Below, in pieces: positions 23,473 to 25,993 of a stretch of 35,179 nucleotides of DNA. Position numbers and translations under genes: made by a program. Source of the DNA: Flavobacteriales bacterium. GTDB lineage: Bacteria > Bacteroidota > Bacteroidia > NS11-12g > UBA955. The stretch spans positions 1-35,179 of the forward strand of contig NSIM01000016.1 of NCBI GenBank assembly GCA_002737705.1, read 5' to 3'. The notes beneath the pieces are model-generated. The model made no database searches. It saw nothing but the letters and a program-made list of their open reading frames with translations, and was not told the DNA's origin. How positions within the stretch are numbered: position 1 is the stretch's first letter; every line of letters begins with the position of its first letter.

Positions 23473-24774
23473 TTATTTTTTTAATCCAAGGGTTGGATCA
23501 AAGGGGTAGAGTAAATAAGGTTTTCGGTCGGTTGAAAATTTTTCAATTCCACTCTGCCACGATTTTCGGATTTCCTCGGCAGAATTTCCTGCCATGATTT
23601 GTTTTTTCAATTCGTCGCTTCCTGAGAGTTTTAAAAAAAACGGGTTGAAGAATTTGTTTTTATCCGGACATTCTTTATAGAGCATGATCAACCATTCGAT
23701 ATAGAGATGTTGGAATGAAACAATAAATTCATTGGCGAAATCACTGAGCAACACCCCATGACAAGTATCGTTCAAAAAGGGAGGGTTGAGTGCTTTTCCT
23801 TTGATATTTTGCGGTACAAATAAAAACGAACCCTTCCGCAGCCAAGGAGATCCATAACATTCGAATGGATAGGCTGTCCCACGACCCATACTCATTTGGG
23901 TACCTTCCAATAAGCACAGTGTTGGGTAAAGATAAATGGCATTTTGATTTGGAAGATTTGGGGAGGGAGGAATGGGTAAAATATAGGATTTGTTGTGGTC
24001 ATAATTCTCGCACTGAATAATCGTTAGCGGACAATGCCTCAAATCGGGGAGCCATTTTTCGCCATTAATCATCGAAGCAAGTTCGCCCAAAGTCATGCCA
24101 TGTACAATAGGAATTGGATGCATACCCACCATGCTTCTGAATTCGGTATTTAAAACGGGGCCATCAATAAAATATCCATTGGGGTTGGGACGATCTAGTA
24201 CAATGAGCTGCTTTTTATTTTCAGCGCAGGATTCCATAACATAATGAAGGGTTGTGAGATAGGTGTAAAAACGTGTGCCCACATCTTGAATATCAAAAAG
24301 CACACAATCAATTTCCTTTAAATCCGAAGCCAAGGGTTTTAAGTTGCTGCCATACAGTGAGATAATCCGTAAGCCGGTTTTGGCATCCATTCCATTTAAA
24401 ACGGTAGCCCCATTTTCTGCATCGCCTCGAAATCCATGTTCTGGAGCAAATACCAATCGAATATCTATACCCAATTTCTGTAGGCTATCGACCAAATGGG
24501 TTTTGCCGATGGTAGAGGTTTGGTTTGAAACCATGGCTATTTTTTTGCCGCGAATTAAGGGTAGGTATAGCCAGGTGCGTTCAGCGCCAACACGAATACG
24601 GTTGTTGTAATTGATGGAGTTAGAATAACCCGTGGAATTTTTGGCATTTATGGACTGAATTTTTACAGAGGATTGAGCAATCAAAGGGGGGAGTGAAAAA
24701 AAAGACAAGGATAAAAGCCATCCAAATAGCAATACAAATTTTGGGTTCGGGTGATTACCTTTGAATCCTATCAT
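23473..24774 (-). CDS. DUF1343 family exported protein
   Basis: The protein has 433 residues from the ATG at 24774, with a signal peptide (FVLLFGWLLSLSFFSLPPLIAQ) preceded by about 13 polar residues. Typical DUF1343 text follows: GKKIAMVSNQTSTIGKTHLVDSL, RLVFAPEHGFRGDAENGA, ISLYGSNLKP, DCVLFDIQDVGTRFYTYLTTL, LDRPNPNGYFIDGPVL and SMGRGTAYPFECYGSPW. The family includes NamZ, an exo-N-acetylmuramidase from Bacillus, so a role in turnover of muropeptide or glycan ends in the periplasm is plausible. An upstream ATG at 24807 is less likely because it would put 11 more residues before the signal. The start codon overlaps that of the divergent LolC/E-like gene. Confidence 0.88.
   Translation of the reverse strand: MIGFKGNHPNPKFVLLFGWLLSLSFFSLPPLIAQSSVKIQSINAKNSTGYSNSINYNNRIRVGAERTWLYLPLIRGKKIAMVSNQTSTIGKTHLVDSLQKLGIDIRLVFAPEHGFRGDAENGATVLNGMDAKTGLRIISLYGSNLKPLASDLKEIDCVLFDIQDVGTRFYTYLTTLHYVMESCAENKKQLIVLDRPNPNGYFIDGPVLNTEFRSMVGMHPIPIVHGMTLGELASMINGEKWLPDLRHCPLTIIQCENYDHNKSYILPIPPSPNLPNQNAIYLYPTLCLLEGTQMSMGRGTAYPFECYGSPWLRKGSFLFVPQNIKGKALNPPFLNDTCHGVLLSDFANEFIVSFQHLYIEWLIMLYKECPDKNKFFNPFFLKLSGSDELKKQIMAGNSAEEIRKSWQSGIEKFSTDRKPYLLYPFDPTLGLKK
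24756..24763 (+). promoter_or_regulatory. -7 element of the LolC/E-like gene, inside the DUF1343 coding region
   Basis: TACCTTTG fits TAnnTTTG exactly. The predicted start is near 24769, four bases before the ATG at 24773. No good TTG is present at the -33 distance. Confidence 0.4.
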
Positions 24775-25993
24775 GTCTTGGGTCAAATTTATAGCATATC
24801 GTTTCATTTGGTTTGAAAATCAATCGTTTTCTAAGAACATGACACTGTTGGCAGTTGCTGCAGTTTCCTTGAGTGTTGCAACCATGATAGTAACCATTGC
24901 AACCGTAAAAGGATTTCAAAATGGCATCCGTGAAAAGATTGTAAAGGTACATGGAAATTTTATCATAGACCATGCAGCAAATGTAGAAGGAGCAGAGCCA
25001 TTGCTGATAGCTCCAGAGTATCTGCCATCACGTTCAGACTTGCCCCAATTTAAAAGAATGGCAATTTCTATTTCCAAAGCATGTATTGTCAAAGCAGAAG
25101 ACGATATCGATGGGGCGATTGCTAAGGGTATGTTGAGGGAGGATGTTGAGTATTCCATGGGCGATTTTTTTAGGTATCAACAAGAAGCCAAGCATCGAGA
25201 ATCCTTACAACCTTGGGTTTATATTTCCCAAACCCTAGCCAATAGGTTAAAATTGGATACAGGCCAATTGTTTACAATGGTTTTTTTTGTGCGCGATAGT
25301 AGTGGTCAGCAGAGGCCAAGGGCAGTGAGGGTAAACATTGTTGGAATCTATGAAACCGGCATAGAGGAGATAGACAAGCAACTATTGTATACCGATATTT
25401 CATTGGTTCAAAAATATTCGGAAATCAAAGGAGCGTTTTCACAAATCGAATGCTGGCAAGCAAACAATAGCCCACTGAAGCTCTCAGAGATTTCGAAACA
25501 GTTGACAGCGGGTGTTTTGAGGGTAAGTGATTCCAGCCAGTTTAACCGTTTGATTTATGATTGGCTTGCAATTTTAAATACCAATGTTTGGATTATTTTG
25601 GTCTTAATGTCACTGGTAGCAATTATCGCAATGTCTACTATATTGCTAATTTTAATTGTTGAAAAGACCTCATTTATTGGTATTTCTCAAGCAATGGGAG
25701 CCAATATTTCCCAAATACAGCGTATTTTCTTATGGCAGAGTGGGTTCATTGTTTTTGCAGGTTTACTGATTGGGGATGCGATTGCCATTTCCCTTTGCCT
25801 GCTTCAAGAAAAAACACATTGGCTTAGCCTTAACCAGGAAGTGTATTTTGTAAAATATGTAATGGTAGACATTAATGTAATGGCAATCCTGATTGTAAAC
25901 AGCAGTGTTTTATTGGCCAGCCTTTTGGCAGCCATTGTTCCAGTTCAGTGGATTAAAAGAATGACACCAACCCAAGCGATTCGATTCCAATAA
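24773..25993 (+). CDS. ABC transporter permease of the LolC/LolE (FtsX/MacB) family
   Basis: Proteins of this family act with LolD ATPase in the inner membrane to release outer-membrane lipoproteins. The protein has 406 residues from the ATG at 24773 (MSWVKFIAYRFIWF). One N-terminal membrane segment (MTLLAVAAVSLSVATMIVTIATV) is followed by a large periplasmic domain (about 45-265). Three C-terminal membrane segments come next (WIILVLMSLVAIIAMSTILL, LWQSGFIVFAGLLIG and VMAILIVNSSVLLASLLAAI). The ends of the family (FQNGIREKIVKVHGN and a C-terminal MTPTQAIRF) are recognisable. A TTG start at 24761 is possible but would lie inside the -7 box. No ATPase gene is adjacent. It converges on gyrB, with a 156-nt gap holding no clear terminator. 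Confidence 0.88.
   Translation: MSWVKFIAYRFIWFENQSFSKNMTLLAVAAVSLSVATMIVTIATVKGFQNGIREKIVKVHGNFIIDHAANVEGAEPLLIAPEYLPSRSDLPQFKRMAISISKACIVKAEDDIDGAIAKGMLREDVEYSMGDFFRYQQEAKHRESLQPWVYISQTLANRLKLDTGQLFTMVFFVRDSSGQQRPRAVRVNIVGIYETGIEEIDKQLLYTDISLVQKYSEIKGAFSQIECWQANNSPLKLSEISKQLTAGVLRVSDSSQFNRLIYDWLAILNTNVWIILVLMSLVAIIAMSTILLILIVEKTSFIGISQAMGANISQIQRIFLWQSGFIVFAGLLIGDAIAISLCLLQEKTHWLSLNQEVYFVKYVMVDINVMAILIVNSSVLLASLLAAIVPVQWIKRMTPTQAIRFQ
24784..24791 (-). promoter_or_regulatory. -7 element of the DUF1343 gene, inside the LolC/E-like coding region
   Basis: TAAATTTG on the minus strand fits TAnnTTTG exactly. The predicted start is near 24778, four bases before the ATG at 24774. Confidence 0.4.

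Follow-up and report, generated by a model that had tools for sequence, protein, structure and literature searches.

A compact divergent namZ/lolE gene pair with a shared CATG and predicted near-leaderless promoters in a Flavobacteriales genome

Results

The window, i.e. the whole stretch of DNA analysed, is the entire contig C8 (35,179 bases) of genome G000 (1.92 Mb, 45 contigs) and harbours two divergent genes that open on one palindromic CATG at 24772-24775, present on both strands. The plus-strand ATG at 24773-24775 opens the frame of a permease which ends at 25993, and the minus-strand ATG at 24774-24772 opens a NamZ frame which ends at 23473; inspection of the window sequence confirmed the original prediction that this one CATG supplies an ATG to both genes. 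By its domain content, the minus-strand protein (23473-24774) is a NamZ exo-beta-N-acetylmuramidase, as NamZ_N and NamZ_C both exceed the gathering score (PF07075, 1.8e-76, 256.5 bits against a cut-off of 26.9, and PF20732, 3.9e-29, 102.8 bits against a cut-off of 25), these domains being preceded by an N-terminus, MIGFKGNHPNPKFVLLFGWLLSLSFFSLPPLIAQ, that was judged by eye to be a signal peptide; DUF1343 is the former name of NamZ. The plus-strand protein (24773-25993) contains an FtsX domain (PF02687, 2e-9, 38 bits against a cut-off of 25.5), and as its best NCBIfam match, LolCE (TIGR02212), scores 146 bits and thus falls below the curated cut-off of 362, it was not assigned to LolC or LolE and is designated LolC/E-like. 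The two genes are referred to below as namZ and lolE, positions such as +18 or -17 are relative to the lolE start, and G012 denotes the closest relative of G000, g1 the genus of the window, f1 its family and f2 the sister family. Further in-frame starts in the window are a TTG at 24761 for lolE and, for namZ, a TTG at 24786 and an upstream ATG at 24805-24807 (minus strand), which would create a 35-bp overlap of the coding sequences and is replaced by ATA in G012.

The two putative -7 boxes of the original prediction were located on the plus strand at 24756-24763 (TACCTTTG, ascribed to lolE and lying within namZ) and on the minus strand at 24791-24784 (TAAATTTG, ascribed to namZ and lying within codons 4-7 of lolE, where the plus strand reads CAAATTTA), each beginning 17 bases 5′ of its own ATG. 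Both match TAHHTTTG, the consensus of the Bacteroidota sigma-A -7 element as it appears in excerpts of PMC6847099. On the opposite strand the lolE box (TACCTTTGA) reads TC AAA GGT A, part of FKG near the NamZ N-terminus, and the namZ box sits in the lolE codons AAA TTT ATA and is thus cheap to arise. Sequence inspection revealed no -33 element (TTG or TTTG) at the usual spacing on either strand of the window; in F. johnsoniae this element is weak and much less evident, and 4-5 nt separate the -7 element from the start site (PMC6847099, excerpts). From this spacing, starts at 24768/24769 (plus) and 24778/24779 (minus) with leaders of 4-5 nt are plausible, in agreement with the four-base leaders and the starts near 24769 and 24778 that had been proposed. 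The two 5′ ends would then overlap by about 12 bases (24768-24779, both strands), and it is plausible that the two RNAs are complementary over this length.

The frequency of the box was determined in a sample of 772,441 bases of G000, comprising 582 open reading frames (ORFs) of at least 100 amino acids and 90 divergent pairs, with four control words for comparison. TAHHTTTG occurs 664 times on the two strands of this sample (4.3e-4 per position), and boxes beginning -12 to -18 from the first ATG were found 61 times among the 582 ORFs, as compared to 3, 12, 4 and 1 for the control words; exactly at -17 there were 6 boxes and no match to any control word. A sharp peak was observed at -12 (27 boxes, controls 0, 2, 1 and 0), a distance which places the predicted transcription start on the ATG itself; one control word gave 7 matches at -11, perhaps a true -12 box shifted by one base, and is not a clean control at that position. 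The enrichment at -12 to -18 indicates that very short leaders are ordinary in G000 and, together with that at -17, that neither box of the window, taken alone, is likely to have occurred by chance. Near-leaderless promoters thus look common in G000, and both boxes of the window appear to lie at a favoured distance. At nine of the 90 divergent pairs, each of the two genes has a box at -11 to -20 from a candidate start, and by their coordinates the boxes are crossed at the window's pair only. Two of the 90 pairs are shared-CATG candidates, namely the window's pair and L113:19467, and boxes on both sides accompany only the former; the latter, which is absent from the group of nine, pairs the third ATG of its minus ORF with the second of its plus ORF. 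The leaderless-type pattern TAHHTTTG + 4 nt + ATG was also counted in the whole of G000 and in the 149 genomes searched at class level. It is enriched, with 79 occurrences in G000 as compared to 26 of the reversed pattern and 33 when the spacing is 2 nt, 137-190 in the four g65 genomes of family f43 (reversed, 5-14) and 234-317 in the three g61 genomes of f39 (reversed, 47-53).

Across 97 genomes, from the genus up to the order and with G000 included, namZ and lolE are adjacent and divergent on one contig in 77. The other 20 comprise eight genomes without a namZ match, two with matches on separate contigs and the ten genomes of genus g13, where the matches lie on separate contigs in eight and the place of lolE is not among the matches listed in two. 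The class-level search covered 149 genomes, four of which (G000, G013, G059 and G060) are already counted among the 77; with these, five genomes without a namZ match and five with an unlisted or untyped match (G173, G202, G203, G225 and G230) left out, 135 genomes were tabulated, and among the matches listed the genes are divergent neighbours in 102 and non-adjacent in 33. Draft assembly may be the cause of the non-adjacent cases, both the 33 at class level and the 20 up to the order. Among the papers listed for DUF1343, for NamZ and for LolE in Bacteroidetes, titles and abstract openings contain no description of this gene pair. For comparison of the junctions, six of the 77 adjacent genomes (G022, G032, G060, G074, G075 and G079) were dropped, since no alignment of the window's lolE to the short stretch was obtained, and 60 of the 102 adjacent class-level junctions were examined closely.

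Of the 43 readable f1 junctions, 40 have TAHHTTTG 12-22 bases 5′ of the aligned lolE start (at -17 in 30 and at -16 in 7), the exceptions being G015, G024 and G028, and a weak scan for exact TAnnTTTG at -60 to -8 of lolE found it in 19 of 60 junctions at class level. The shared CATG was found in 10 of 43 f1 junctions, in none of 28 in f2 and in 3 of 60 across the class, and is thus not a conserved divergent overlap. In the window's genus only G000 and G012 have the CATG and the minus box; the remaining 11 of the 13 members with a readable junction have GTG as the lolE start and no TAAATTTG at the window's place. The original prediction had proposed conservation of the CATG and of both -7 boxes as a check: this holds for the lolE box and fails for the CATG and for the namZ box. 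Nor do the relatives simply have an ordinary intergenic gap, which would have spoken against that prediction, as many have other overlaps and several genera have other antisense boxes. Among the f1 junctions with a shared CATG, it is the sole candidate namZ start from +60 to -60 in G017 and G029 (a TTG at +61 of G029 lies just outside), alternative namZ starts are upstream only in G027 and G035, and later in-frame starts are also present in G000, G012, G015, G021, G028 and G037; in G012 the candidate namZ starts from +60 to -60 are ATG at +1 and TTG at +13 only.

Candidate namZ starts in the window's genus are found at +34, +19, -2, -17 or -35, varying by genome. CAT at +17 to +19 of lolE, i.e. 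an antisense namZ ATG, is present in 9 of 13 g1, 10 of 10 g5, 3 of 3 g10 and the single g12 junction, and this site (24790-24792, minus strand) is ATA in the window. In nine g5, g10 and g12 genomes (G018, G025, G030, G033, G041, G046, G049, G052 and G058) the interval between +19 and the point where the hydrophobic stretch ends, as judged by eye, contains no ATG, GTG or TTG; in G018, G033 and G058 the next such codons are at the end of that stretch or beyond. It follows that namZ of these nine must start at +19 or deeper in lolE, and that short 5′-5′ coding overlaps are real in the family. A codon test was rejected as proof of the +19 ATG, for TTC-ATA is unusual within lolE but TACATAGC is also found in f2, where the candidate namZ starts are elsewhere; the absence of later starts is the better evidence. 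Judged from these junctions, the shared CATG is one product of starts that slide, a local variant and not a conserved switch.

Antisense TAAATTTG at +18 is found in G000 and G012 only. The 13 other genomes of g1 and g4 (11 g1 members and both g4 genomes) all carry antisense TATTTTTG at +66, a place (24832-24839, minus strand) where the window has no box. Antisense TATTTTTG is also present at +162 in 7 of 7 g7 genomes, with TATCTTTG there in the single g8 genome, and antisense TAAATTTG at +33 in both g14 genomes; no exact antisense TAnnTTTG was found in lolE in most g5 junctions or in those of g10. An antisense TACATTTG at 24978-24985 (minus strand) corresponds to +212 of lolE in G000, G012 and G049. 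In f2, TAATCTTG at -20/-21 faces CAAAAGTA, which ends on the A of the lolE ATG, its complement TACTTTTG beginning opposite that A. Of the 28 junctions, 14 contain both boxes, 16 contain CAAAAGTA or CAAAAATA, and 22 have a looser form.

Scanned in windows of seven codons, lolE exceeds the expected synonymous codon identity most strongly from codon 20 in g1 (1.00 against 0.35 expected; rank 1 of 238); in g7 it does so from codon 49 (1.00 against 0.45 expected; rank 1 of 341). These top windows cover the +66 and the +162 box, respectively; the codon-20 window of g7 ranks 237. As the boxes had stood out partly for being conserved, some constraint is to be expected there, whereas the top rank is not. 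Promoters embedded in the coding sequence of the neighbour thus look real and recurrent, because antisense boxes recur (+66, +162 and +33) and the constraint coincides with them at +66 and +162. Codons 20-24 (24830-24844) are likewise the most constrained in g5 and g15, most of which have no exact TAnnTTTG there, and as the top windows at codons 20-21 of these genera are mostly without an exact box, the constraint may have another cause. A second region of high synonymous constraint was observed at the lolE 3′ end of the g1 and g4 genomes (about codons 394-404, window about 25952-25984). The LolE proteins of G000 and G012 are 88% identical; at codon level 270 of 340 comparable lolE codons are identical, and 8 of 9 in the first 12 codons, a figure drawn from two genomes only. 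Around the namZ box (-17 to +18) 33 of 35 bases are identical in these two genomes, as compared to 40/43, 55/60, 35/42 and 48/60 in adjoining stretches, so that the surroundings of the box are not clearly better conserved than the neighbourhood.

Discussion

The reading that we favour, with moderate confidence and on comparative sequence evidence, is that namZ and lolE form a compact pair in which each promoter lies in or against the start of the neighbouring gene, with leaders of 4-5 nt, a shared CATG and independent or mildly interfering expression. The housekeeping polymerase would transcribe lolE from TACCTTTG and namZ from TAAATTTG, yielding near-leaderless mRNAs that would both be translated from the shared CATG and whose leaders would be too short for ordinary upstream control. 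The interlocked geometry would have come about through the short leaders that are common in G000 and through sliding of the namZ start and promoter over the first lolE codons. Codon 6 of lolE provides a possible trace of such sliding, being TTC in most relatives and TTT in G000 and G012 (TTC ATA against TTT ATA): a C-to-T change at 24790 would remove the +19 namZ ATG and, with the GTC AAA before it, complete TAAATTTG. This direction is likely, judged by eye from parsimony rather than from a tree. G000 and G012 are also the two that lack the +66 box, and they have ATG at +1; TTT ATA is found in G003 and G006 too, without the box.

An alternative that we hold to be unlikely is that TAAATTTG is a by-product of the lolE codons K-F-I, in which case the namZ promoter would lie elsewhere or deeper in lolE and an ordinary leader would extend to the CATG. 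The lack of the box at the window's place in 11 of the 13 genus members is consistent with this, as are the boxes of relatives deeper in lolE and the TACATTTG at +212 of G000 and G012; the enrichment of boxes at -17 in G000 (6 per 582 ORFs, controls 0) argues against it, and so does the presence of the +18 box in the very two genomes that lack the +66 box. Initiation of namZ at ATG 24807, with a 35-bp coding overlap like that of relatives whose sole candidate start before the hydrophobic stretch is +34, appears improbable: a +34 ATG is present in 7 other genus members, and G003 and G006 have no start codon between it and a TTG at -44, but the closest relative G012 has ATA at this place, and in G000 the stretch upstream of 24807 has no exact box at a distance that would suit this start.

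The geometry had originally been taken to make expression of the lipoprotein exporter and of the cell-wall-related protein mutually exclusive, and such a dedicated switch between export and cell-wall turnover is in our judgement very improbable. The start sites, the two promoters and the overlapping 5′ ends of that interpretation are plausible and its lolE box is deeply conserved; the arrangement itself is not conserved. Going by footprint size, two polymerases could not occupy both promoters together, the gene pair is conserved, and boxes that face each other are seen again in f2, all of which would suit a switch; yet the exact geometry is not conserved among relatives, and a lipoprotein exporter is expected to be required all the time. 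Excerpts of PMC12825309 also speak against a switch, as the basal activity of the five bidirectional promoters tested in E. coli was too low for polymerases to compete, and competition arose only when one side was strongly activated. Since interference was absent at basal activity in those promoters, compaction with mild interference is preferred over a switch. In a bolder version, which we put forward tentatively and consider rather unlikely, the first lolE codons would serve as the namZ promoter throughout the family and perhaps the class, and in several genera the first namZ codons as the lolE promoter, with the ratio of export to turnover set by occlusion and by the complementary 5′ ends, and with the interlock under selection as its spacing drifts.

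The bidirectional promoters described by Warman et al. (2026; PMC12825309, excerpts) resemble this locus in that opposing transcription issues from one short stretch to which polymerase cannot bind in both directions at once. Their start sites flank or lie within one shared -10 element. The pair analysed here has two distinct -7 boxes that face one another at a distance of 20 bases, with predicted starts that cross, so that the RNAs would overlap; the boxes at 24756-24763 and 24784-24791 share no base and thus do not represent a bidirectional promoter in the sense of these authors. The Bacteroidota housekeeping promoter, TTTG/TAnnTTTG in excerpts of PMC6847099 and PMC9723704, is matched by both boxes (as TAHHTTTG), but the -33 element is absent here and the predicted leaders are of 4-5 nt. 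According to the same excerpts, leaders exceed 10 nt in 87% of the F. johnsoniae transcripts for which a promoter is probable, and 5.5% of the examined mRNAs of F. psychrophilum are leaderless; a survey excerpted from PMC3160421 reported leaderless genes with Pribnow-like boxes, the sole type sought, in one of 37 Bacteroidetes/Chlorobi genomes. Known divergent overlapping genes (PMC2478687 and PMC2174442, excerpts) likewise have two coding sequences that overlap at their 5′ ends. Such overlaps are rare, amounting to 457 of 42,055, and all 75 that exceed 60 bp were judged misannotations (PMC2478687, excerpts); here, in contrast, short overlaps recur across genera, and in nine genomes every candidate namZ start that precedes the end of the signal stretch lies within lolE.

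Promoters with short leaders would allow a divergent pair to be compacted to the point where the same bases hold promoter, start codon and signal peptide, and the antisense boxes at +18, +33, +66, +162 and the lolE start may constitute a natural series in which starts and promoters have swapped places. Selection on the interlock, if proven, would be the more interesting outcome, and the best lead towards it is offered by the genus-specific antisense boxes under synonymous constraint. Owing to its class-wide spread, the pair is well suited to testing whether facing promoters couple two envelope genes.
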